From positions 1-64,000 of the forward strand of contig CABYDR010000002.1 in the NCBI GenBank assembly GCA_902517795.1: a DNA stretch of 64,000 nt, given 5' to 3'. The notes beneath the pieces were generated by a model. That model searched no databases. It saw nothing but the letters and a program-made list of their open reading frames with translations, and was not told where the DNA came from. The DNA is from an uncultured Woeseiaceae bacterium (GTDB lineage: Bacteria; Pseudomonadota; Gammaproteobacteria; Steroidobacterales; Woeseiaceae). Of the stretch, positions 3,648 through 40,595 are shown piece after piece (the first letter of the stretch is position 1; each line of letters starts with the position of its first letter). The position numbers were made by a program, and so were the translations under genes.

Positions 3648-4139
3648 ATGGTCAATAAAGAAAAAAAATCAACTCTAAAAACTATCGAAGACTGTCTAAT
3701 TGTTCTTCTGCTTAGTTTAGTTATTCTGGTTTCTCTGACTCAAATCGGAATGCGACTATTCTTTAACTCCAGCATCATTTGGGGTGATGAATTTATTAAA
3801 ATTATTATACTTTGGTTAGCAATGATAGCCTCAGTATCAGCGAGCAGAAGTAATAGGCACTTAAAAATTGACCTTATAGAAAATTTTATCTCAAATAAAA
3901 TTTCTCATTTCCCAAAAATTATTTCTAAATTATTCGTTTCTATAGTTTGTGGAGCAGTTACCTGGCACTCTATTTTATATATTCATTTGACAATAACTTT
4001 CAATGAAACCGTTATGAATGGATTTCCAGCATGGATAGCCTATGCCATTGTGCCTTTATCTTTTTTCATGATGTCTTACAGATATTTTTTTCAAGCGTTG
4101 AATCATATTGTAAAAATTAATGAAGAGCGTCATAAATGA
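3648..4139 (+). CDS. TRAP transporter small permease, DctQ family
   Basis: 4-TM protein with 'WGDEFIKIIILWLAMIASVSASRSNRHLKID' DctQ motif. Confidence 0.85.
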   Translation: MVNKEKKSTLKTIEDCLIVLLLSLVILVSLTQIGMRLFFNSSIIWGDEFIKIIILWLAMIASVSASRSNRHLKIDLIENFISNKISHFPKIISKLFVSIVCGAVTWHSILYIHLTITFNETVMNGFPAWIAYAIVPLSFFMMSYRYFFQALNHIVKINEERHK

Positions 4140-5380
4140 TCTTAATATTAATAATTTTGTGCATTATAGGAACTCCGCTTTTTTCTGTAATCGCTGCAAG
4201 TGCGATGTTTGGGTATGCATCACAAGAAATTGATTTAATGGCTATAGCTATCGAAATTATTGGTATATCAGATATGCCTTTTCTATCTGCAATTCCTCTT
4301 TTCACCCTCTCAGGGTATTTATTAAGCGAGAGTAATGCGCCAAAAAGATTGGTCGCTTTGACAGATATTTTTTTAGGATGGATGCCTTCAGGTTTAGCCA
4401 TTGTATCAATTCTAGCTTGTGCGCTCTTTACAGCTTTCACTGGAGCATCAGGTGTAACGATAATAGCACTTGGTGCAATCTTATATCCGGCACTCAAAGA
4501 AGATGGATACTCTGATAATTTTAATCTTGGTTTGATTACAACGTCGGGGAGTTTAGGTCTCCTGTTCGCACCATCTTTACCTCTAATTTTGTATGGTGTT
4601 ATTGCCGGAGTTTCAATTGATAATCTATTTAAAGCAGGGATTCTTCCGGGCTTAATGATGATATTATTACTTTCATTTTATAGCTTTTCTGTAAATGCAA
4701 AAAACTTTAAATCAAGTAAGTCCTTTGATTTGAAAAAGGCTTTTATCACGTTAAAAGAGTGCGCCTGGGAGATACCGCTTCCATTTCTGGTATTAGGCGG
4801 AATTTATTCTGGATTTTTCGCGATATCTGAAGCGGCAGCATTGACTGCGCTGTATGTCTTTATTGTCGAAGTGGTTATATTAAAAGAAATTAAATTCATC
4901 GATTTACCATCTCTAATGCGAGAATCAATGATTATGGTTGGAGGTATATTGATTGTGCTTGCTGTTTCACTTGCATCGACCAACTACATGATCGATTCAG
5001 GTCTTCCGCAAAAGATTTTTGGGTTAGTTTCTGAGGTTGTCGACGATCAGATTACTTTTATTATATTGTTGTTACTGTTTTTGATTATTCTAGGCGCCAT
5101 CTTAGACATTTTTTCAGCGATAGTCCTTGTTGTACCTATTCTATTACCAATTGCTGAGATGTATGAAATTAATCAAATACACTTAGGAATAATATTTCTC
5201 TCGACAATGCAATTGGGATATCTAACACCACCTGTAGGGATAAATTTATTCATTGCCAGCTATCGTTTTGATAGATCTATTATTGATGTATACTCGTCTA
5301 CAATACCTTTCTTTTTAATTCTTCTTCTTTCTGTAATTTTGATTGCATTTTTACCATCACTATCAACTGTATTTATTTAG
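4136..5380 (+). CDS. TRAP transporter large permease, DctM family
   Basis: Polytopic; 'IPLFTLSGYLLSES', 'FTAFTGASGVTIIALGAILYPAL', 'MQLGYLTPPVGINLFIAS' DctM motifs; overlaps dctQ by 4 bp. Confidence 0.92.
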   Translation: MILILIILCIIGTPLFSVIAASAMFGYASQEIDLMAIAIEIIGISDMPFLSAIPLFTLSGYLLSESNAPKRLVALTDIFLGWMPSGLAIVSILACALFTAFTGASGVTIIALGAILYPALKEDGYSDNFNLGLITTSGSLGLLFAPSLPLILYGVIAGVSIDNLFKAGILPGLMMILLLSFYSFSVNAKNFKSSKSFDLKKAFITLKECAWEIPLPFLVLGGIYSGFFAISEAAALTALYVFIVEVVILKEIKFIDLPSLMRESMIMVGGILIVLAVSLASTNYMIDSGLPQKIFGLVSEVVDDQITFIILLLLFLIILGAILDIFSAIVLVVPILLPIAEMYEINQIHLGIIFLSTMQLGYLTPPVGINLFIASYRFDRSIIDVYSSTIPFFLILLLSVILIAFLPSLSTVFI

Positions 5381-5383
5381 CTC

Positions 5384-7225
5384 ATGCATTTTATAAAAAA
5401 TTTATTTGGTTTTATTTGGACAAATTTAGGGCGTCTTAGGCGTTTTTTAAATGGACTGCTTTTGTTTTTTTTCTTTTCTGTGCTTTTAGTTTTGCTTATA
5501 CCTGTTAAATACGATGTAAATGATAAAAGTATCTTGCTAATAAACCTCAAGGGAGAGCTAGTTGAGCAACTTCAGGGCGATCCTTTCGAAAGGGCAGCAG
5601 ATGAATTTTTTGGTGAAATCAGAAATGAGACTTTAGTTCAAGATGTCATTGATACACTGGAATATGCTAAAACAGATAAAAGAATCAGTTTAATCATATT
5701 GAGATTAGATGAATTTACCTATGGAGGATTAAGTAAATTAGAAAGAATCGCAAACACGATTGACTCCCTAAGAGATAACGATAAAGAAATCATTGCATTT
5801 GCTGAATCGTATAATCGAAGCTCATATTATTTGGCGGCCAGAACGAATAAAATATTTCTCCATCCAGACGGATATATTATCCCGGAAGGATTTTCTTTTT
5901 ATAGTAATTATTACAGTGACTTGATAGATAAAATTAAAGTTGAATTTAATATATTTAGAGTGGGTTCTTACAAATCAGCAATCGAGCCCTTTGTCCGTAA
6001 TAACATGTCTGACGAATCAAGAGAAACTAGATTACGGCTTGCAAAAGAGTTTTGGTATAAATACGAAAAGGACATTGTTGCTTCAAGGAAACTTATTGAT
6101 AATGGCCTAACTAAATATTCTAAAGATTTGATGGAAGAGATTGAAGATACTGAGCAAAATATTGCAACGATAGCACTTTCTAATAATATTGTTGATGAGC
6201 TAATTACGAAAAATCAATTACTCAATAACCTAAAAAAAGAATATCAGTTAGATGATGATGAATTGGAAGAACGAATGATTTCAATGAGCAACTATTTATT
6301 TGCGTTAAATTCAGAAACTGCTGAACATGAGAGTGAAAAAAATGTAGGGATTATTATTGCATCTGGTCAGATACAAGATGGTAATCAGCCATCAGGATTA
6401 ATTGGTAGCGATTCACTGATATCACTAATTAAAGAAGCTCAAAAGGATGAATCAGTCAACGCATTAGTCCTTAGGATAGATTCACCAGGAGGAAGTGCTT
6501 TCGCCTCAGAAGAAATTCTTGAACAATTGATTGAATTTAAATCTACAGAAAAACCACTAATTATCTCAATAGGAAGTGTTGCTGCTTCAGGTGGATATTG
6601 GATAGCTATGGCAGGCGATGAGATATTTGCTTCTGAAGTCTCAATCACAGGGTCTATAGGAATTTTTGCGATGCTTCCGACAATACACAACACTTTAGCT
6701 GAGATTGGAATTTATAATGATGGAGTAACATCTAATGATATAAACACAGATTTTTATATCGATAGAGAATTATCTCCTGATTTAAAAAAAATAATTCAAT
6801 CTCAAATTGAGCATGGCTATCGTACATTTGTAAATAAGGTCGCAATCCACAGAGATATGAGGTCAGGCCAGGTTGAAAGTTTAGCTGACGGTCAAGTATG
6901 GACAGGTAAAGAAGCATTAAATAATGGGTTAATTGATCGAATTGGTGGACTGGATGATGCTGTTCTTGAGGCAGCGTCTTTAGCAAAAATAGATTCACTT
7001 AATTATGGAATAAAACTAATTGAAGATGATTTTAGTGGAACAAGGTTGTTTTCAAAATCTATTATTGAAACACTTTCTGTATTTGGTTTTAATTATCAAT
7101 ACAGTAAAAATAAAAAAAACCCTATTCAAAGAATAGACAGCTTCATACAAAAAAGAATTTCATTGTTGATGCAGTTTAATGATCCAAAAGGTATTTATGC
7201 TTATTGTTTTTGTGAAGATTTTTAG
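5384..7225 (+). CDS. sppA: Signal peptide peptidase SppA (67K type)
   Basis: 613 aa; 'SPGGSAFASEEI', 'SIGSVAASGGYWIAMAGDEIFA', 'TGSIGIFAMLPT' S49 motifs, duplicated-domain length. Confidence 0.92.
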   Translation: MHFIKNLFGFIWTNLGRLRRFLNGLLLFFFFSVLLVLLIPVKYDVNDKSILLINLKGELVEQLQGDPFERAADEFFGEIRNETLVQDVIDTLEYAKTDKRISLIILRLDEFTYGGLSKLERIANTIDSLRDNDKEIIAFAESYNRSSYYLAARTNKIFLHPDGYIIPEGFSFYSNYYSDLIDKIKVEFNIFRVGSYKSAIEPFVRNNMSDESRETRLRLAKEFWYKYEKDIVASRKLIDNGLTKYSKDLMEEIEDTEQNIATIALSNNIVDELITKNQLLNNLKKEYQLDDDELEERMISMSNYLFALNSETAEHESEKNVGIIIASGQIQDGNQPSGLIGSDSLISLIKEAQKDESVNALVLRIDSPGGSAFASEEILEQLIEFKSTEKPLIISIGSVAASGGYWIAMAGDEIFASEVSITGSIGIFAMLPTIHNTLAEIGIYNDGVTSNDINTDFYIDRELSPDLKKIIQSQIEHGYRTFVNKVAIHRDMRSGQVESLADGQVWTGKEALNNGLIDRIGGLDDAVLEAASLAKIDSLNYGIKLIEDDFSGTRLFSKSIIETLSVFGFNYQYSKNKKNPIQRIDSFIQKRISLLMQFNDPKGIYAYCFCEDF

Positions 7226-7713
7226 GAATTCTGATCTGAAAGATAAACATTTTTATCAGATATTATTGCCTCTGCTCCTAAATCCCATACATCCAGATTT
7301 ATATTCAAAGACACGCACCCTGATGTTGGTAGGTATATAGATTGTTTCAGAAGGCTACTCGATAATTCGCTCAACCCAGGATTGTGTCCAACTATTATTA
7401 GATCATTAATAGATTCAGATTGGCTTTGAATTTTTTCAGTTAATAACCCTGCAGAAGCTAAGTAAAGCTCTTTATCAAGATAAAGTATTCCTGGGTCCCA
7501 TTTATTTTTTTCTAGCAGTATTTTGACTGTCTCAACAGTTCTCCTGGCATTACTGCTTATTATTTTTGATGGTAATGGATGCCAATCTTTTACAAATTTT
7601 GCTACAACATGACATTCTTTCTCGCCTTCTGGGCTTAGCGGTCTAGACCAATCATTAACGATAGAATCTTGATATAATGAATCCCCATGACGAAGAAGTG
7701 TAATTCTTTTCAT
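7222..7713 (-). CDS. sixA: Phosphohistidine phosphatase, SixA family
   Basis: 'ITLLRHGDS' RHG motif at N-terminus, 'IIVGHNPGLSEL' second His motif. Confidence 0.82.
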   Translation of the reverse strand: MKRITLLRHGDSLYQDSIVNDWSRPLSPEGEKECHVVAKFVKDWHPLPSKIISSNARRTVETVKILLEKNKWDPGILYLDKELYLASAGLLTEKIQSQSESINDLIIVGHNPGLSELSSSLLKQSIYLPTSGCVSLNINLDVWDLGAEAIISDKNVYLSDQNS

Positions 7714-7716
7714 GTC

Positions 7717-8271
7717 TTAATACATCATGCCTGTTTGAAGTTTAGCTTCATCTGACATCATGTCCTGACTCCAGGGCGGATCAAAAACTAATTCAACATT
7801 GACGTTATGAATGGTTGGTATTATTTCAACCTTATCTTTTGCGTCTTCAACAAGTATGTCGCCCATACCACAACCTGGAGCAGTAAGCGTCATATCAATT
7901 TCCACTTCTCTTTTTAAATTATCTTTATTAGTTATCTCGCAGCGGTAGATTAATCCTAAATCCACAATATTTATGGGTATTTCTGGGTCGTAACATGTCT
8001 TAAGTTGATCCCATATGACTTTTTCAATGTCCTCATTGGATGCATTTTCTGGTATTTCTGGTGGAGGTTCTATTTCTTTGCCAATTGCATCGGCATCTGA
8101 ACCAGCAACCCTGAATAAATTTCCTTCGATGTAGATTGTGAAACTTCCACCAAGAGCCTGTGTTATAAAACCTGAAGTTCCCTCTCTTAATAAAAGTCTT
8201 TCACCCGCAGGAATGATCACTGCATAAAGATCTCTAACTAAAATAAATGGCTCATTAGTATGCCCAAACAT
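7717..8271 (-). CDS. sufT: Putative Fe-S cluster assembly protein SufT
   Basis: DUF59/MIP18-like 'YDPEIPINIVDLGLIY', 'MTLTAPGCGMGDILVEDAK', 'VELVFDPPWSQDMMSDEAKLQTGM'; end of suf operon. Confidence 0.9.
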   Translation of the reverse strand: MFGHTNEPFILVRDLYAVIIPAGERLLLREGTSGFITQALGGSFTIYIEGNLFRVAGSDADAIGKEIEPPPEIPENASNEDIEKVIWDQLKTCYDPEIPINIVDLGLIYRCEITNKDNLKREVEIDMTLTAPGCGMGDILVEDAKDKVEIIPTIHNVNVELVFDPPWSQDMMSDEAKLQTGMMY

Positions 8272-8275
8272 AAGT

Positions 8276-8755
8276 CTACTCCGTCGATGTAATTTTTATA
8301 TCATCATCAAAGGCAGATAAAAAAGTCTGCCAGCTGAGATTTACACATTTTATCCTTGTCGGAAAGTCTTTCACCGCACAGAGAATACTCAGTTCCTTAT
8401 TATTTTTAATGAAGTCATTTTCTGATAACTCCCTATTTGAAGACAATTCACTAATAAAGCTCCATGCAATTTTTTTTGCTTCACTTATGCTTGTATCTTT
8501 TAGAATCTCGGTCAACATTGAAGCTGAAGCTATAGATATTGCACATCCTACTCCTTCAAATCGTATTTTCTTAATAGTATCGTTATGAGTAGATATGTAT
8601 ATTTCGAGTTTGTCGCCACACAGAGGATTGATACCTGTTGATCTGACAGCATCAGATTTTAAAGATCCAAAATTATATGGATTGCTGGCATGTTTTATGA
8701 CTAGCTCTTTATAAAGTTTAGTTATATCCGCTTTATCACTTTTTAAATTTGCCAT
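8276..8755 (-). CDS. sufU: Fe-S assembly protein, SufU / NifU-N family
   Basis: Three conserved Cys contexts 'NPLCGDKLEIY', 'GVGCAISIASASMLTE', 'TRIKCVNLSW'. Confidence 0.9.
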   Translation of the reverse strand: MANLKSDKADITKLYKELVIKHASNPYNFGSLKSDAVRSTGINPLCGDKLEIYISTHNDTIKKIRFEGVGCAISIASASMLTEILKDTSISEAKKIAWSFISELSSNRELSENDFIKNNKELSILCAVKDFPTRIKCVNLSWQTFLSAFDDDIKITSTE

Positions 8756-11234: not shown

Positions 11235-11975
11235 TTATTCACCATCATCCTTGTAACCTGTCTGCTCTAGACGCTGCGCTAATGATTTGTCACCAGACTC
11301 AATAATTTTTCCATTTGATAAAACATGGACATAATCTGGTTCAATATAGTCGAGTAATCTTTGATAGTGCGTTATCAATATAATGGCTTTGCTTTCACTT
11401 TTAAACTCATTCACTCCCTTAGCAACGATTTTGAGAGCATCAATATCCAATCCTGAGTCAGTTTCATCTAAGATAGCAATTTCTGGATTTAGCATCGTCA
11501 TCTGGAAAATTTCATTTCTTTTCTTTTCTCCACCAGAGAAACCTTCGTTTACACCTCGGTTTAGAAAGGTTTGAGGGATTTCTAGTTTTTCAATCGTCTC
11601 TCTCGCGAGTTTAAGAAAATCAACTGCGCTCATTTCTTCTTCCTCTTTATGCTTTCTTTTTGCATTAATTGATGCTCGAAGAAATTGAGAGTTATTTAAA
11701 CCAGGGATTTCAACAGGATATTGAAAACCAACAAATATTCCCTCTCTTGATCTTTCTTCTATTGATAAATCCAAAAGATTTTCACCTTTGTATTGGATTT
11801 CACCCTCAGTAACTTCACAATCATCTTGTCCAGCTAGTACCTTCGCTAGGGTACTTTTTCCAGATCCATTGGGACCCATGATTGCATGCACTTCTCCTGG
11901 AGATATCTCTAGCGATAATCCATTCAGAATTTTTGTTTCATTGATACTTGTATGTATGTTTTTTATATTTAGCAT
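11235..11975 (-). CDS. sufC: Fe-S cluster assembly ATPase SufC
   Basis: Walker A 'GPNGSGKSTLAKVLAG', 'EGFSGGEKKRNEIFQM' signature, 'LDETDSGLDIDAL'. Confidence 0.97.
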   Translation of the reverse strand: MLNIKNIHTSINETKILNGLSLEISPGEVHAIMGPNGSGKSTLAKVLAGQDDCEVTEGEIQYKGENLLDLSIEERSREGIFVGFQYPVEIPGLNNSQFLRASINAKRKHKEEEEMSAVDFLKLARETIEKLEIPQTFLNRGVNEGFSGGEKKRNEIFQMTMLNPEIAILDETDSGLDIDALKIVAKGVNEFKSESKAIILITHYQRLLDYIEPDYVHVLSNGKIIESGDKSLAQRLEQTGYKDDGE

Positions 11976-11989
11976 AATTATACTCTTTG

Positions 11990-13432
11990 TTAACCAACAG
12001 CACCTTCAAGGCTTACATTCAAAAGCGCTTCTGCTTCAACAGCAAATTCCATCGGCAGCTTTTTAAACACTTCTTTACAAAAACCATTAACAATCATATT
12101 GACGGCATCTTCTTCGCCGATACCTCTTTGTTTGCAATAAAATAATTGATCCTCGGAGATTTTTGATGTGGTAGCTTCGTGCTCAATGATCGATGATGAG
12201 TTTTTTCCTTCTATGTAAGGAAAAGTATGTGCTCCACAGTCTTTCCCAATCAAAAGAGAATCACATTGAGTATGGTTTCTTGAGTTCTTTGCTTGAGGCA
12301 TTATACGAACAAGTCCTCGGTACGCATTTTGTGCTGCACCAGCAGATATGCCTTTTGAAACAATTGTACTTTTGGTATTTTTTCCAATGTGAATCATTTT
12401 TGTACCTGTATCCGCTTGTTGCTTGTTATTGGTCACAGCGACTGAGTAAAATTCACCTATTGAGTGATCTCCCCTTAAGATGCAACTCGGATACTTCCAA
12501 GTGATTGCTGAACCCGTTTCAACTTGAGTCCAAGAAATTTTTGAGTTTGACCCTCTACAATCACCTCTTTTAGTAACGAAATTATATATACCACCTCTAC
12601 CGTTCTCATCACCTGGATACCAATTCTGAACAGTGGAATATTTTATCTCGGCATTCTTCAGTGCAACCAGTTCAACTACGGCTGCGTGCAATTGATTTTC
12701 GTCTCTCATAGGAGCAGTACAGCCCTCTAGATAACTAACATAGCTGTCTTCATCAGCTATTATAAGGGTTCTCTCAAATTGGCCTGTATTTTCAGCGTTT
12801 ATTCTAAAGTAGGTAGATAATTCCATTGGACATCTCACACCCTTAGGAATGTATACAAAAGAACCATCACTAAAAACGGCAGAGTTGAGGGCTGTGAAAA
12901 AGTTATCTCGTTGAGGAACAACAGTACCTAAATATTTTTTTATTAGTTCAGGGTATTTGTGAACCGCTTCTGAGAACGGACAAAAAATTACCCCTGCCTC
13001 GGATAATTTTTTCTTAAATGTTGTAGCAACAGACACACTATCAAATACGGCATCAACTGCAACACCAGCCAATCTGGCTCTTTCATGGAGCGGGATTCCC
13101 AATTTGTCATATGTTTCGAGAAGTTTTGGGTCAACTTCATCGAGACTCTGAGGTTTGTCTTCATTTGATTTTGGCGCAGAATAATAGGATATATCTTGGT
13201 AATCAATTTTTGGATAACCAATGTGCGCCCAATCTGGTTCTTCAAGAGTCAACCAGTGTTTGTAGGCTTTCAGCCTCCATTCAAGCATGAACTCTGGTTC
13301 TTTCTTCTTTTTTGATAGAGCAGTGATGACATCTTCATTTAGACCGGGTGGAAAGGACTCAGATTCAACATCGGTAGTGAATCCGTATTTATATCGATCT
13401 CCTATGAGTTTATTTATACTTTCGTTTGCCAT
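11990..13432 (-). CDS. sufB: Fe-S cluster assembly protein SufB
   Basis: '[41 protein letters not shown]', '[12 protein letters not shown]' SufB motifs. Confidence 0.97.
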
Positions 13433-17499: not shown

Positions 17500-17590
17500 G
17501 GAGAGATGGCTGAGTGGTTTAAGGCGCTCGCTTGGAAAGCGAGTGTGCGGTAGTACCGTACCGAGGGTTCGAATCCCTCTCTCTCCGCCA
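17500..17590 (+). tRNA. tRNA-Ser(GGA), 3' CCA encoded
   Basis: GGAGAGA/TCTCTCC acceptor stem, anticodon loop TTGGAAA flanked by CTCGC/GCGAG, long variable arm, GGTTCGAATCC T-loop, CGCCA end. Confidence 0.97.
17574..17590 (+). repeat. att core (tRNA side), TCCCTCTCTCTCCGCCA
   Basis: Exact 17-bp match to 22854-22870. Confidence 0.9.
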
Positions 17591-17641
17591 CACTCTTAAA
17601 AGCCAATAATATAAACAGTTTCAAGATATACATATTAAAAA

Positions 17642-17672
17642 TGTAGTACAAATGTAGTACATTATGTGGTAT
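17642..17672 (+). repeat. Left triplet of candidate integrase arm sites: TGTAGTAC at 17642 and 17653, TGTGGTAT at 17665
   Basis: First 19 bp (TGTAGTACAAATGTAGTAC) identical to 22762-22780; same 11/12-bp register of three copies. Confidence 0.7.
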
Positions 17673-17820
17673 TTGAACCAAAAATAACCTCAAATTTTTA
17701 CACACGAAAGTGTGCATCGACTGCGCAATGTCTTAGTCCTTGCTAGGTGAGGGCAGAGTGCCATACCGGGTAGGTGGGATATATATCTAGTGGTCTAACA
17801 TTTTTAGCCAGATTTGGCTG

Positions 17821-18330
17821 TTAAGTAGATTCTGAATCTATACAAACCTCACCGTTATCTTCTACTAATTTAACAAGATTTTGATCCATAAGTCTGCTTC
17901 TTCTATTCCATACCTCTCTGTATATAGAACAATTTTTGTTACTCACACCTTTATATAAGGTCAACATCGCAAGTAACTTTGCTTTCCACATATCTTCATC
18001 CATCAATCCTAGTCTATATTGTAAGTAGTCATTCTCAGCTACTATCCATCTCGTTACTATAAAATTCGTGAACACTAATTTCTCTCGATCTTCCCAATCT
18101 TCATATATATCAAGGAATGAAACATCGGCTAATGAAAAAGTTTGATAAACGTTAGTTAGCATTGACGCTCTTGCTTGTTGTTGTGCGGCTAATGCAATTT
18201 TATGAGACTGCCTTAACTCTAAACCAACGAAGATCAAAGATGCGATCAAACCTATTACACCAACTATCTGAAAAAGTTCACTGTACTTGGAAAGACTATT
18301 TATTGAGAAGATACTTTTATTCATAAACAA
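17821..18330 (-). CDS. Single-TM protein of unknown function, family 'GLIASLIFVGLELRQSHKIALA' (paralogue A, island-borne)
   Basis: ORF with N-terminal TM segment; shares two blocks with ORFs 26136..26618 and 40104..40595. Confidence 0.7.
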   Translation of the reverse strand: MFMNKSIFSINSLSKYSELFQIVGVIGLIASLIFVGLELRQSHKIALAAQQQARASMLTNVYQTFSLADVSFLDIYEDWEDREKLVFTNFIVTRWIVAENDYLQYRLGLMDEDMWKAKLLAMLTLYKGVSNKNCSIYREVWNRRSRLMDQNLVKLVEDNGEVCIDSEST

Positions 18331-18432
18331 AGCCTACACAACTAACAAACTCTTGTGAAGGCTAGGTGTTGGTTTTGATTGCTTCAACGGATGATAAAAG
18401 AAGCTGAAGCTGAGTATGATAGGAAGCAGGAG

Positions 18433-18543
18433 TTATTTACCCGACTTTTCTTTAGCTAATTCTTTAGCCTTATATTCTTTTTGTTTTTGCTGAAACCTTT
18501 CTTCCTTCTGTCGCATCCGCTTCTGCAGATATTTCTTACCCAT
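18433..18543 (-). CDS. 36-aa highly basic/charged small protein (MGKKYLQKRMRQKEERFQQKQKEYKAKELAKEKSGK), unknown function
   Basis: ATG preceded by AAGGAGA Shine-Dalgarno (taaaggagaactaaatg on the minus strand); absent from the ORF track because of length. Confidence 0.5.
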   Translation of the reverse strand: MGKKYLQKRMRQKEERFQQKQKEYKAKELAKEKSGK

Positions 18544-18554
18544 TTAGTTCTCCT

Positions 18555-18962
18555 TTAACGATTCAGTATGCCGATTACATAATAAATAAGAAAACCAAGT
18601 AAAAAGATAGAAACATAATAGGTATATTCTTTGTACTTTTCCTTTTTATCAGCTTCCTTTTTTTCTCGTTGCGCTATTCCTTCTTTTGTAACCTCATAAG
18701 CTTTCTTTTTTATTTCACGAATTTTTTCTTCATATATATATTCAGGTGTTTCTAGTGGATTATTTGCTTGGCGTAAACGACCTATATGTTCATCCAGATC
18801 ATCAATTTGATCTTCTAGATCTGTTCTTAAATCGTTCATATCATCTGTTAGCTTATCGTGTAAATCATCAAGGTCTTTCTTCCAAGCGTAACTAAGATAA
18901 ACACCAGCAAGAAATATGATCCAACCTATGTGAACTGAAAAGCCGAAAATATCTACATACAT
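18555..18962 (-). CDS. Small membrane protein with two terminal TM segments and a central charged coiled-coil region, unknown function
   Basis: N-term 'IGWIIFLAGVYLSYAW', heptad-like 'DLDDLHDKLTDDMNDLRTDLEDQIDDLDEHIGRLRQ', C-term 'YYVSIFLLGFLIYYVIGIL'. Confidence 0.6.
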   Translation of the reverse strand: MYVDIFGFSVHIGWIIFLAGVYLSYAWKKDLDDLHDKLTDDMNDLRTDLEDQIDDLDEHIGRLRQANNPLETPEYIYEEKIREIKKKAYEVTKEGIAQREKKEADKKEKYKEYTYYVSIFLLGFLIYYVIGILNR

Positions 18963-18986
18963 TTCATTTCTCCTTAACCCAACATC

Positions 18987-19202
18987 TCAAAATCCACACT
19001 CATTGCCATCCGTTCTCCAGTCATAAGTACAACGATAACAATGGAAGTCAGGTGAGTAGCCTTCATAAATAATATCTCCACCATATTTACATTCAGGTCT
19101 TTTTGCGTTTTCTTTAAACATATCACGAGGACTAGTGAGTATTCCGTAGAAGTATCTGTCAGTTTCGTCAGACTTATTACATTTAGGACATTTGGTTTTC
19201 AT
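18987..19202 (-). CDS. 71-aa zinc-ribbon-like protein, unknown function
   Basis: CxxC pairs 'CPKC' and 'CYRC' plus further Cys. Confidence 0.55.
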   Translation of the reverse strand: MKTKCPKCNKSDETDRYFYGILTSPRDMFKENAKRPECKYGGDIIYEGYSPDFHCYRCTYDWRTDGNECGF

Positions 19203-19372
19203 AGTTATAGAATACCACGCTACCTTGACAAGTCTAAAAATTGATGCTAAACTCTATGCTGATTTAAGCATTCATAGAGTTCAGACGTACCTACCTATAC
19301 CTTTAAAGAGATCTCTTCTTAGAGAGCAATCTGGTGTGTTCTAGAGGTATGTTTAGTGTGGAGTCTAAATGC

Positions 19373-20626
19373 TTATTTGATTAACGGAGACAGTCTCTTG
19401 TATATCTCTGGCATAGCTGTTGAATACATCAGCATCTCCATAGTGTCTTTGTCAGATTCTTTTACAATAAAACTATCGTGGACTGTTAATGCACAAATCC
19501 CATTTAGTGAAGCTTGATGAGCAATAAAGAACAAATGATTCTGATCTATCCAAGCGTAATGCTCTGCTCTGTCTTTGCCTTTGTAAAAATAATCTTTCAG
19601 CACAGCAAACTTTTCTTCAACTGCATCTACCAATTCTGATGTGGTGAGTTTGGAATCTTTCTTCAAATCTTTGTATTCGTCTTTTTCACAAAAGAAAGCA
19701 AACCTAGCTGATGATTCACTTCTGCTTTCTGAGTTGAGCATACACCAGTTGATTAAAACTTTAACCAATGTCCTATCCACACCTTCAATGTGATACAGAT
19801 CAATATCTCTACCTGTATTGAGATAACTATCAAACAGAAACTTATGCAGGTTATTGATACAAGAAGCGTTGTAATCTAATTCCACAGTAGCTTCACCATC
19901 AATAGTAATCTCTCTTTTTTGATGCCAGTAGCCACCTGATCTGCCACCATAGAGTAATGGATACTTACTCTTCCAGTTGCGATAGGTGCGTGTCAGATGA
20001 ATGTCCACATACTGCTCACCTGATTTTAAGTTAATGATGGTATGTTGATTTAGGAAAGCACAATACTCTGACATTAACTTCTCTATATGGTCTGAGTATT
20101 CAGTTTCTTTAAAGTCTATAAGTTTGCCACCATTAGGTAAGGTCTCTCTATACATCAGATGGCAGTGATTATCTTCAGATATTGATTCAGGAACAATACC
20201 TAGCTTCTCTGCTAACAGAATAACTCCATCTCTGGAAACCATTTCAGATTTTAAGGCGTGAGAATTATCTTCTTTTTGTTTGTAGTAAGCGTTATCACCT
20301 GTTTTATTTTTGATGTAACCTGCGTCAGCTAATTTATCAACCACAGTTATGATTCTTTTAATACCAATCTGTTGTGGATTATAGCGTTTAGGAAGAGTTT
20401 CTGTGTGTTGTCTGCTATAAAGTATGACTTGGTTGGGATACTTAATTAGGTTGCAGAGAATAAGTCTGAGAGCCTGTAATTGCCCTCTGATTTTGATACT
20501 GGATAAATCATTATAAACGTAGACGCCATCCTCTAATAGAGACTCAGATACCTCTTTTGAAGCGACATGAAGTGGATGTTTTGTTATCTCAACATCAGCA
20601 TTTAAATAAAAATTAAAGTAAGGCAT
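19373..20626 (-). CDS. Putative replication protein: possible N-terminal winged-helix region and C-terminal family-A DNA-polymerase-like palm motifs
   Basis: 'TVELDYNASCINNL' (motif A-like), 'RTLVKVLINWCMLN' (motif B-like), 'ICALTVHDSFIV' (motif C-like VHD) in correct order; 'IITVVDKLADAGYI' HTH-like. Confidence 0.5.
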   Translation of the reverse strand: MPYFNFYLNADVEITKHPLHVASKEVSESLLEDGVYVYNDLSSIKIRGQLQALRLILCNLIKYPNQVILYSRQHTETLPKRYNPQQIGIKRIITVVDKLADAGYIKNKTGDNAYYKQKEDNSHALKSEMVSRDGVILLAEKLGIVPESISEDNHCHLMYRETLPNGGKLIDFKETEYSDHIEKLMSEYCAFLNQHTIINLKSGEQYVDIHLTRTYRNWKSKYPLLYGGRSGGYWHQKREITIDGEATVELDYNASCINNLHKFLFDSYLNTGRDIDLYHIEGVDRTLVKVLINWCMLNSESRSESSARFAFFCEKDEYKDLKKDSKLTTSELVDAVEEKFAVLKDYFYKGKDRAEHYAWIDQNHLFFIAHQASLNGICALTVHDSFIVKESDKDTMEMLMYSTAMPEIYKRLSPLIK

Positions 20627-20878
20627 TTATTTTTGGCTCTCTATGGAGACCCTGTCTAGTCTATATACTATAAAGTCTATATAGATAGCTGAAATATACC
20701 AGTAGTTATCCTTCCATCCACCATCATTATTATTATCTTAGATGTGGAGCAGTGGTAAAGCTTTGTATAGATTTTAAAGTAACTGGAATTAATCCTTCTG
20801 CTACCACCTGATATATAACTTGAAAATTATACTAAGTTTGTAATATGTTATTAGCTAAACAAATAGATAGGAGCTCCA

Positions 20879-21193
20879 ATGAAAAAATACACAATGTTTA
20901 TAGCTTTTTCTTTCTTGCTACTGAATATTCAAGGTTGCGCAACTACTGAAGATGTTTATGGTCCATCTGGTGAAAAGCTGACACTCATTGATTGCTCTGG
21001 AGAGTATTTGAATTGGGGTCACTGTCAAGCTGAAGCAGGAAAAATCTGTGGAGAGAAGGGTTATGATGTTGTCCAACAGGATACTGATTCAGGTGGAGGA
21101 TCTGCTTCAATCTCAGGGAACTCTAATACTGGAATATTTGGCACAGCAAGTTCAATAGTAACTAGAACGATGATGGTTAGATGTAAAGATTAG
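20879..21193 (+). CDS. Small lipoprotein, unknown function
   Basis: Signal peptide with lipobox 'LLNIQGCATT'; aggagctcc RBS upstream. Confidence 0.6.
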   Translation: MKKYTMFIAFSFLLLNIQGCATTEDVYGPSGEKLTLIDCSGEYLNWGHCQAEAGKICGEKGYDVVQQDTDSGGGSASISGNSNTGIFGTASSIVTRTMMVRCKD

Positions 21194-21423
21194 CTTGTAT
21201 AGCTATTAATTAGCTTAGATTAAGAGTTAACTGACAGTAATTAATATATAAATTATATTTATTTCCAACCTTACAAAAATTAGTTGTTAATCTGTTCAGT
21301 CTTTAAAAAACTTTAGAGTATCCAAGTTGTTGAAAAGTATAGTTATTTTATTACATTAACTATTAATACATTTATTTCTATTATCTTTTATTTATTCATT
21401 TATATTTATTTTGTGAACCAGTG

Positions 21424-22752
21424 TTAGCTTCTAAAGTCTGGTAACCGCTGAATGTATTTATCCATAACTTCTAACCCAACACCTTTAGAATACCTTTGAA
21501 AAGACAGTCCTTGTCCTGCTGTATGTCCAGTTATTCTGTCTACTATATTTTCTGGACACTCAAGGTTCTCAAGTTCAGTACTGGTCATACCTCTAATAGA
21601 GTGAAAACAATACTCTCTTCCTCTGTCTCCATATCCTGCTCTCTTTTTTGCTTCTGTAAATGCTTTAGAGAAAGCATTGGATGATGTTCTTTGGTCAAAC
21701 ACAGTAAAATCCTTAAGCATTGACTCTAAATGCTTGTGTATAGGAGTCTGTCTTTTAGCAAACTTATTCTTTCCTTGAGTGTTCTCTTTGAAATAAAGGT
21801 ATCTGATACCTGATTCTTTATCCTTATAAATATTGTCTGCAGTAAGATCAGTTATCTCATCTATTCTTGCGCCTGTGTACCACGCTATATAGATCATTAA
21901 TTTGTCTTGATTGTGTTGAGAAGTATTGTAGATATTGGTTAGCTCTTCTTTTGTCCAGTTCTGACAAGCAGTTGATTCCTTATTGAACTGATCTGCCCAA
22001 TCATCAAAAGGATTGGCTGTGTTGAGATCTTCATAATCTCTAGCGTGTTTCCATAAAACACTTAATGGAGATAGATAACCTTTTATTGTGCTGTCTGCTG
22101 TTCCTTTTTGCTTACAGTAGTAGATAAAATCCCTTGTATTTCCTCTAGTGATAGCGTGAACATAGACATCCTTCTTTGAGTTATAAGCGTGAAACAATTC
22201 ACTTGCTCTTGTGTATTTATATATTCCCTTATCAGAGAGATTATTTAATTCCTTTTCTTTTATAACTCTCTCTAGTGCTTGTTTCAGAGTCAGTCTTCCT
22301 CTTTGTTCAACCGGTTTTAATTCATCACTAATCTCCTCACCAAGACTTTTCTTTAAAGCAATATATTTCATAGTCTCTTTGTCAGGCATTGGAGGAGTGT
22401 CTGGATCTTCAGGATTCCATTCAAGATGCCCTAAGTAAGGATATTCAGTAGCTACATCATCAAGCCATCTTTCTAAAATACGGCGCTTCTCCATATCAGG
22501 AAGACCTATTAATGTTTCCTTTTCATCAGCAAGAGAAGGATTGGATTTCTCTGTCATTAACAGGTTGTTAAACCATACGTTGTATCTGTCTCTTTCCATG
22601 AGAGCAGTTGACAAACTGTCTGTGCCAAGTGACTTCAAGAAATTCTTTTTTCCTCCAAAGACAGGATTGTTAAGGAGGGCTTTAGGTATCCTTCTATTGT
22701 AATACCATTTGCTCCTAGCAAAGCGTAAGTGCTTGTGATTTTTAGTAGACAT
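21424..22752 (-). CDS. int: Tyrosine site-specific recombinase (phage-type integrase)
   Basis: 'YTGARIDEITDLTADNI' (Arg I), 'FHSIRGMTSTELE' (HxxR box), 'ITGHTAGQGLSFQRYSKG' (H and Tyr box); adjacent to the distal att site. Confidence 0.93.
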   Translation of the reverse strand: MSTKNHKHLRFARSKWYYNRRIPKALLNNPVFGGKKNFLKSLGTDSLSTALMERDRYNVWFNNLLMTEKSNPSLADEKETLIGLPDMEKRRILERWLDDVATEYPYLGHLEWNPEDPDTPPMPDKETMKYIALKKSLGEEISDELKPVEQRGRLTLKQALERVIKEKELNNLSDKGIYKYTRASELFHAYNSKKDVYVHAITRGNTRDFIYYCKQKGTADSTIKGYLSPLSVLWKHARDYEDLNTANPFDDWADQFNKESTACQNWTKEELTNIYNTSQHNQDKLMIYIAWYTGARIDEITDLTADNIYKDKESGIRYLYFKENTQGKNKFAKRQTPIHKHLESMLKDFTVFDQRTSSNAFSKAFTEAKKRAGYGDRGREYCFHSIRGMTSTELENLECPENIVDRITGHTAGQGLSFQRYSKGVGLEVMDKYIQRLPDFRS

Positions 22753-22761
22753 ATTACAAAT

Positions 22762-22792
22762 TGTAGTACAAATGTAGTACGCTTTGTAGTAT
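22762..22792 (+). repeat. Right triplet of candidate integrase arm sites: TGTAGTAC at 22762 and 22773, TGTAGTAT at 22785
   Basis: Same 11/12-bp spacing as the left triplet; lies immediately upstream of the integrase start. Confidence 0.7.
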
Positions 22793-22853
22793 TTTATGGC
22801 TTATTTAATGGGATTCAAGATAAGTTATTGAAATAAAAGGGCTACACATACTC

Positions 22854-22870
22854 TCCCTCTCTCTCCGCCA
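22854..22870 (+). repeat. att core (distal side), TCCCTCTCTCTCCGCCA
   Basis: Exact 17-bp copy of the tRNA-Ser 3' end. Confidence 0.9.
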
Positions 22871-26135: not shown

Positions 26136-26618
26136 CTAATCCTGGCATGGATTACCACCCGATTCTTCCAGTAACTGCTTTAATTCCTGGCTGGCATAGG
26201 ATAATGCAAATTTTGTGACATCTTTGTATTGGCACATAGCATAAATAGCACGCATAGATGTTATTTTTGCCTGCCAAACCTCCTCATCCATGAGTCCGAG
26301 TTTATGTTGGAGGAAATCATTTTCATATATCATCCAAACTCGGTACATATATGTTTCAGTTGTGGCGCGATTGTTTTCATCTGACAAATCTAAGCTTTGA
26401 TTTAAAAAATTTAGAAAGCTTATTGGTGGATTTGCTTCTGAAAAAGAGCCAATAACTTCAGTAATCAATGCGGCTCGCTGTTGTTGTTGTGCAGCCAGAG
26501 CAATTCGATGTGATTGTCTGAGCTCCATACCAACAAATATCAGTGAACCAATGATTCCGATAATACCGAGAAAGTTGGTAACTTTTGTAAATGATACCGT
26601 TATTGGTGTTTTTAGCAT
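26136..26618 (-). CDS. Single-TM protein of unknown function (paralogue B)
   Basis: 'IIGIIGSLIFVGMELRQSHRIALAAQQQQRAA' and 'YENDFLQHKLGLMDEEVWQAK' shared with paralogues A and C. Confidence 0.7.
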   Translation of the reverse strand: MLKTPITVSFTKVTNFLGIIGIIGSLIFVGMELRQSHRIALAAQQQQRAALITEVIGSFSEANPPISFLNFLNQSLDLSDENNRATTETYMYRVWMIYENDFLQHKLGLMDEEVWQAKITSMRAIYAMCQYKDVTKFALSYASQELKQLLEESGGNPCQD

Positions 26619-40103: not shown

Positions 40104-40595
40104 TTATCGCTGACTGCATTTATCTGGAAAAGTATTGATTAATTCAATCATTTCAGATGGCATCCAGCGTGAACGAACCTCAAAAAGCTCTCTCATATCA
40201 CATAAATTATACCAATACTCAAATGCTCTTACTTTAGCCTGCCAAACTTCATCAGTAATAAGGCCTTGGCTGTATTGAAAAAAATCATTCTCATATAAAA
40301 ACCAAGCATCGTGGTAACTATTTCTTCTGGCAATTTCTTTAATTGTAAATTCATAATCTACTTTGTTTTCGATAGAGGTTGATTGCCAATCTATTCCTGA
40401 TAAGGTGCTGTTCATAATTAATTGACGAATGGCATTATTCCTCTCTTGTTGAGTTTTGGCCAGTGCAATTTTATGAGATTGTCTTAGTTCTAATCCAACA
40501 AATATGAGGGATGCAATCAAGCCAAGTATCCCAATTATTTGTAGAAAGTCATTTAGACGATTCACAGTCAACATAGTTGAAATATTTTTATTCAT
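40104..40595 (-). CDS. Single-TM protein of unknown function (paralogue C)
   Basis: 'QIIGILGLIASLIFVGLELRQSHKIALA' and 'LYENDFFQYSQGLITDEVWQAKVRAF' shared with A and B. Confidence 0.7.
   Translation of the reverse strand: MNKNISTMLTVNRLNDFLQIIGILGLIASLIFVGLELRQSHKIALAKTQQERNNAIRQLIMNSTLSGIDWQSTSIENKVDYEFTIKEIARRNSYHDAWFLYENDFFQYSQGLITDEVWQAKVRAFEYWYNLCDMRELFEVRSRWMPSEMIELINTFPDKCSQR

Follow-up and report, generated by a model that had tools for sequence, protein, structure and literature searches.

How does a 5.28-kb chromosomal segment, bounded by the end of a serine-tRNA gene and a duplicate of that end, replicate and move with seven open reading frames (ORFs)? The segment, here called the window element, lies in a stretch of 64,000 nucleotides (the window; contig CABYDR010000002.1, assembly GCA_902517795.1) from an uncultured Woeseiaceae bacterium, a marine organism with a small genome (assembly of 1.27 Mb). 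Judging from sequence comparisons, it is a genuine mobile element that inserts into serine-tRNA genes. It is ordinary as a tRNA island and unusual in its minimal polymerase-centred replication module, which turns up repeatedly in large virulent phages and, across lineages, next to tRNA genes. Minimal elements of this kind show how few genes are enough for a life at the expense of a cell or a phage. A sequence-only reading of the same DNA had described a compact tRNA-Ser(GGA) island and suggested that it resembled a phage satellite; we somewhat favour the view that it is a minimal integrative element, most likely borne by a helper phage, that works like such a satellite.

Integration at a serine-tRNA gene

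The 17-bp sequence TCCCTCTCTCTCCGCCA occurs exactly twice in the window, as the 3′ end of tRNA-Ser(GGA) (17574-17590) and 5,280 bp further on (22854-22870), which agrees with the exact duplication claimed earlier. No third copy with up to two mismatches was found in the window, where the chance expectation is 0.02 copies, and a 16-bp core is restricted to the same two places across the whole assembly. The element has a G+C content (35.0%) like that of its flanks (35.3 and 37.1%) and would have escaped a search by composition alone. The empty site that had been predicted was found in G003, a genome of the same genus, in which the chromosomal sequence from beyond the window's distal repeat comes immediately after tRNA-Ser(GGA), with the expected junction ATCCCTCTCTCTCCGCCA|AGGTTATCACATCATTGACTAATAACATGG. 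The joined window flanks aligned with G003 over 629 bp at 91% identity with one small gap, and a fucosidase-like gene begins 50 bp past the tRNA end in G003, likewise past the distal repeat in the window. Nine genomes of the genus were compared, and two copies of the core are present in G000 only; G001 and G007 possess the GGA tRNA and, anywhere in their assemblies, no integrase or polymerase gene of the element's kind. An integrase gene, a duplicated tRNA 3′ end and an empty site in relatives are thus found together, bearing out the proposal of an integrative element using a tRNA 3′ end and, at the level of sequence, demonstrating integration there.

Related elements were found in two further genomes, G006 (Woeseiaceae AG-319-E21) and G002 (Woeseiaceae AM-375-N10), with integrases 97% and 63% identical to that of the window, respectively. 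Both elements (9.4 and 10.8 kb) are inside tRNA-Ser(GCU), the core of which, TCCCTCGCTCTCCGCCA, differs by one base from the GGA core, and a second empty site was recovered in G008, where the sequence past the G006 distal core directly follows tRNA-Ser(GCU). At a contig end of G003, whose GGA site is empty, a GCU-type distal end stands together with arm sites and an integrase of 96% identity, and a second G003 contig breaks off exactly at tRNA-Ser(GCU); contigs ending at an attachment (att) site hint at an excised or circular form, which is only suggestive. Because the relatives of the window integrase in G006, G002 and G003 occupy GCU, a single integrase lineage appears both to target two serine tRNAs and to pass from species to species. 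The three elements of the window, G006 and G002 (5-11 kb) have common ends and core genes, each combining a tyrosine integrase with the polymerase family described below, and differ in cargo; no virion gene was found in any of them. They are mosaic at the DNA level, with the integrase and right end of the window element ~96% identical to G006 and its polymerase region 92% identical to G002, and the integrase and polymerase are 97% and 93% identical to one and the other relative. With related elements at another tRNA, conflicting relationships of the modules and an empty site in a relative, neither outcome that the sequence-only reading had set against itself (a segment always at the same place with vertical phylogeny, or no relative with an empty site) holds.

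The ends of the elements also share non-coding features. An imperfect 37-nucleotide direct repeat (86%), absent from the earlier reading, lies a short way inward of each core (17638-17674 and 22758-22794) and contains TGTAGTAC units ~11-12 bp apart. Arm repeats are present at both ends in all three elements and have the form expected of arm-type integrase sites, as which they could serve. Two conserved blocks are candidate sites of other kinds: the left-end block may be a regulatory, terminator or packaging/origin site, and the AT-rich block upstream of the polymerase gene may be a promoter or replication origin.

Traces of other insertions were observed at serine-tRNA genes. In G001, weak TGTAGTA-like repeats lie 3′ of the unoccupied tRNA-Ser(GGA) (L036 4794-4950), in sequence resembling that after the distal core of G003:C8, and are possibly the trace of an earlier insertion. 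A fossil polymerase C-terminus lies beside tRNA-Ser(GGA) in G165 (L064 8227-8526) and beside tRNA-Ser(UGA) in G004 (L065 8160-8324). The upstream order in G165 (M48-type protease, peroxiredoxin, tRNA) is that of the window, so that an earlier insertion seems to have struck this very spot.

The phrog_4756 protein and its occurrence

The seven ORFs between the repeats encode 169, 35, 135, 71, 417, 104 and 442 amino acids (aa); the small gene set described earlier therefore stands, and the count of about eight does not. The 442-aa product is the tyrosine integrase that had been placed just inside the distal repeat, with PF00589 and PHROG matches and a start codon 101 bp from that repeat. Its combination with a putative polymerase or initiator and orphan cargo also stands, the polymerase candidate at 19373-20626 (- strand) being a member of phrog_4756. 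Family scans of the window ORFs (Pfam, PHROGs, NCBIfam and PADLOC) gave no capsid, terminase, portal or tail match above cut-off in the element, in line with the earlier statement that phage structural genes are not recognisable; they also gave no relaxase, a lone oriT still being possible, and no defence gene.

Replication seems to hinge on the 417-aa protein, which is recognised by neither Pfam nor NCBIfam and is assigned by PHROGs alone to the unannotated family phrog_4756. A motif-A aspartate, an R...K pair and an H-D pair form the signature of the PolA/T7-like polymerase superfamily. In alignments of 11 and 15 diverse family members, the latter gathered partly with a motif-C DNA pattern, D251, R285, K289, H383 and D384 are invariant, corresponding to the conserved motifs A (D), B (R...K) and C (HD) of family-A/T7-like polymerases; a GGR motif is also kept, with its arginine invariant and its glycines nearly so. 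The AlphaFold2 model built with 15 sequences reached a mean predicted local distance difference test score (pLDDT) of 70 and ~78-93 across most of the catalytic half, and that built with only 4 sequences was unusable (pLDDT 45). Mitochondrial RNA polymerases and family-A DNA polymerases made up nearly all of the best Foldseek matches in PDB, proteins of winged-helix type (ribosomal protein eS10-type chains, Fur and ZitR) gave further short matches, and matches among viral models include proteins named 'DNA polymerase', down to E 1e-17. The modelled polymerase fold is well supported, and an N-terminal winged helix joined to a family-A palm is predicted. A PDB profile search gave no significant relative, motif C only matching DNA polymerase I (E=0.41), and in hhalign TGR, DYS and R..K came into register with PolA, and the alignment with T7 RNA polymerase spanned the motif-C region. 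The window protein thus resembles family-A DNA polymerases and T7-like or mitochondrial RNA polymerases in motifs A, B and C and in its best solved-structure matches, but it differs from them in comprising 417 aa only, with no exonuclease domain recognised and a predicted winged-helix N-terminus, and its sequence similarity to them falls short of significance.

Phage and plasmid records were searched with a relative (L060, genome G044) and, for plasmids, with the window protein as well. The relative matched 167 phage records, mainly of Vibrio, Aeromonas, Shewanella and Pseudoalteromonas phages, and nearly all phrog_4756 phages among the matches listed are 110-145 kb in size; for plasmid records, three matched the relative and none the window protein. 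ICP1 carries a member, ORF100, annotated as 'conserved hypothetical protein' (L081 2987-4654, HQ641347.1). The family is rare in bacterial genomes of the host order and class, and 10 of the 11 intact (near-full-length) genomic copies have a tRNA gene no more than 5 kb away (Ser in three cases, and Gly, Leu, Phe, Arg, Asn, Glu and His), compared with none of 13 polA control loci (p=6e-6, or 3e-5 when the three Ser elements are treated as one, only indicative because several polA controls share one genus). Tyrosine integrases are close to the polymerase gene in G206, G235, G401, G411 and G418. The G235 element is complete and is bounded by 16-bp tRNA-Asn repeats at a distance of 5.2 kb, with genes for a P4-type integrase, AlpA (PF05930, 1.4e-14) and the polymerase between them. 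Since nearly all copies lie near tRNA genes, most of them by an integrase, and one forms such an integrase-AlpA-polymerase element, the window element is a genuine minimal integrative element of a wider group, which is apparently undescribed and probably satellite-like. The recurrence of phrog_4756 in tRNA-inserted elements, together with its presence in ICP1 and more than 160 other phage records, provides a first testable role for the family, offers a marker by which further elements can be found, and suggests that large virulent phages and the small integrative elements of uncultured ocean bacteria are linked at the molecular level.

Several further copies were observed. Among ICP1 isolates the family is represented by at least two divergent versions, which match at 28% and 24% and at different positions, and ICP1 is itself the helper or target phage of the phage-inducible chromosomal island-like element (PLE) satellite. 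G044 has two different phrog_4756 genes, L060 at tRNA-Gly and L041 at tRNA-Leu, with no integrase identified beside either within the stretches read. In G206 (L061 3218-8114) the polymerase gene stands beside genes for a D12-class adenine methylase, an ORC-CDC6-like ATPase, a calcineurin-like phosphoesterase and a CARF-family PADLOC match, possibly an uncharacterised defence operon; methylase or restriction genes are near the polymerase in both G206 and G418, where the element limits are undefined. Scans of viral contigs with the window polymerase and several relatives gave mostly nothing. In L097 (IMGVR_UViG_3300037296_000253), a ~3.4-kb segment with the polymerase gene (3745-5013, 7092-8360 and 11751-13019) is present three times, nearly unchanged (99.6%), beside capsid-type genes, which could be a duplication, a concatemer or an assembly artefact; its reading as a satellite concatemer was set aside because the contig also bears these capsid-type genes (recognised by eye).

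Proposed modes of replication and transfer

The window element could operate as follows. The integrase would bind the TGTAGTAC arm sites at both ends and recombine the tRNA-end cores, excising a 5.28-kb circle whose predicted joint is the core joined to CACTCTTAAAAGCC. The circle would be copied with the help of the element's own compact polymerase-like protein, which probably recognises the AT-rich block at 20627-20745 and primes or extends DNA there, and the small membrane proteins and the lipoprotein would be variable cargo, perhaps active at the cell envelope. As neither particle nor conjugation genes were found, the element would most likely travel inside helper-phage particles, the helper possibly being a large virulent phage with the same polymerase family. 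Our confidence falls from excision by the integrase, through polymerase-led replication from the upstream block, to carriage in helper particles.

The satellite interpretation rests on the absence of transfer genes of its own, the minimal size and a polymerase family whose other carriers are mainly large virulent phages, on AlpA in the G235 relative and the phage-type lipoprotein in the window element, and on virulent and jumbo phages being known to move such islands (PMC10803314, PMC12595487). Several observations weigh against it. No AlpA or excisionase, packaging, capsid-size or remodelling gene was recognised in the window element, no helper phage or virion-derived copy of it was found, and the integrase is essentially without phage relatives in tblastn. 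Pattern scans of IMG/VR with the window polymerase gave no close relative, and phrog_4756 phages are known mostly from Vibrionaceae and Aeromonas rather than from the host of the window. For the polymerase itself, the best PDB fold match has E 4.6e-3, none passing E 0.001, and the hhalign values for PolA (E 0.11) and T7 RNA polymerase (0.13) are non-significant and prove nothing alone, because an unrelated control, T7 ligase, reached 0.15. With these gaps, and with the definitions of phage-inducible chromosomal minimalist islands (PICMI) and P4-like satellites failing, the phage-satellite-like nature suggested by the sequence-only reading is not established.

Among known systems, PICMI of Vibrionaceae, whose helper is a virulent phage, are defined by integration next to fis and by AlpA (PF05930/PF12728) with a primase (DUF3987/DUF5906) (PMC10803314). 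The window element resembles them in its marine host, a size of about 6 kb, 17-bp direct repeats and an integrase with one replication protein and few cargo genes; capsid-remodelling genes are absent from PICMI and none was recognised here. It differs in that it lies at tRNA-Ser, a polymerase-like protein replaces the primase and no helper is known, and the assignment was rejected on the tRNA-Ser site and the lack of AlpA or DUF3987/DUF5906 Pfam matches in the six main ORFs. A P4-like satellite was likewise rejected (no P4-type alpha primase/helicase or Psu/Sid/Delta match in Pfam or PHROGs), as were Charybdis elements (PMC12324425), which have an archaeal host and no replication gene. A conjugation-borne integrative mobilisable element was not supported either, no relaxase being recognised among the ORFs. 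General family scans, made without dedicated satellite models, gave no regulators, primase, terminase small subunit or capsid genes of phage-inducible chromosomal islands (PICI), capsid-forming PICI (cf-PICI) or PLE. Virion-encapsidated integrative mobile elements (VEIMEs) and tycheposons, marine bacterial integrative elements proposed as satellites and described in PMC10803314 and PMC11389934, share a tyrosine recombinase and diverse cargo with the window element, of which no virion-derived copy was found in the IMG/VR scans with its polymerase. I55-type Pseudomonas islands, which are moved by a jumbo phage (PMC12595487), are similar in insertion at a tRNA or tmRNA end, tyrosine integrase, lack of transfer genes and, for I55, transfer by a large phage, but they are far larger (at least 39 ORFs), carry AlpA and use a tmRNA site, and the text consulted reports no phrog_4756 polymerase for I55. 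ICP1 ORF100 and its homologues in large Vibrio, Aeromonas and Shewanella phages belong to the same family with conserved polymerase motifs, but they reside mostly in 110-145-kb phages rather than integrated elements and are unannotated there too. By analogy, the window element would work like PICMI and other minimal satellites, and it appears to fall within none of the described families that were open to testing. The literature gave no report tying phrog_4756 or a family-A polymerase to satellites; the search missed the original VEIME and tycheposon papers, so a prior description is possible.

A broader proposal is tentative and, in our estimate, rather doubtful: that phrog_4756 elements are undescribed, widespread tRNA-integrating satellites of Gammaproteobacteria, marked by an integrase and a single compact winged-helix/family-A polymerase that replaces the primase of other satellites, the polymerase being exchanged with large virulent (ICP1-like) helper or competitor phages. 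A less probable alternative to the helper-borne element is a self-excising, self-replicating, plasmid-like cargo island, which would spread free of phages by transformation, vesicles or conjugative mobilisation and share its polymerase through old gene exchange with phages. Such an island would suit the absence of packaging genes, an integrase that is not phage-like, the lack of close polymerase relatives in IMG/VR and the few plasmid records with phrog_4756, but the lack of a relaxase, the excess of phage over plasmid records (167 vs 3) and AlpA in a relative argue against it. We consider it improbable that the element is a degraded prophage left by a larger temperate phage after loss of its virion genes, a reading to which the integrase, phage-type polymerase and phage-type lipoprotein could point: every reading frame is intact, three elements share ends and core genes with different cargo and no virion gene, and the 97% identity of integrases between species suggests recent mobility. 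That chromosomal genes simply adjoin a tRNA and a chance repeat, as base composition equal to the flanks would allow, is virtually eliminated, being already refuted by the exact empty site and contradicted by the 0.02 copies expected and the same layout at another tRNA.

Features and minor observations

Table 1. Features of the window element and their positions in the window
Feature	Position	Strand	Evidence
tRNA-Ser(GGA), target gene	17500-17590	+	ARAGORN; last 17 bases are the proximal att core 17574-17590
Left arm-type integrase sites (TGTAGTAC repeats), putative	17638-17674	+	Direct repeat; recurs in G006 and G002 elements
Conserved non-coding left-end block with two small inverted repeats	17751-17831	.	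Conserved in three elements; weak fold z -2.2
169-aa small membrane-type protein, cargo	17821-18330	-	Family scans, comparison; paralogues on chromosome and in relatives' elements
Possible 35-aa basic ORF	18440-18545	-	Read by eye from sequence alone
135-aa membrane/coiled-coil protein	18555-18962	-	No family above cut-off
71-aa zinc-ribbon-like protein, CxxC pairs	18987-19202	-	61% identical copy in G006 element
417-aa polymerase-like replication protein, phrog_4756	19373-20626	-	PHROGs E=6e-25
Conserved AT-rich block upstream of polymerase gene	20627-20745	.	Conserved in three elements; modest single-strand fold z -1.9
104-aa lipoprotein, phrog_5685, cargo	20879-21193	+	36% identical to lipoprotein of P22-like Salmonella phages
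442-aa tyrosine integrase	21424-22752	-	PF00589 E=3.4e-12; PHROG integrase E=1.1e-25
Right arm-type integrase sites (TGTAGTAC repeats), putative	22758-22794	+	Direct repeat; recurs in relatives
Distal att core, exact duplicate of tRNA 3′ end	22854-22870	+	Repeat scan, empty site

The first cargo gene belongs to a family of membrane-type proteins of 160-170 aa with weak similarity to DUF6082, which has several members both inside elements and in the chromosome close to tRNA-Ser sites (window 17821-18330, 26139-26546 and 40116-40568; L039 7179-10369; L035 4171-5229).

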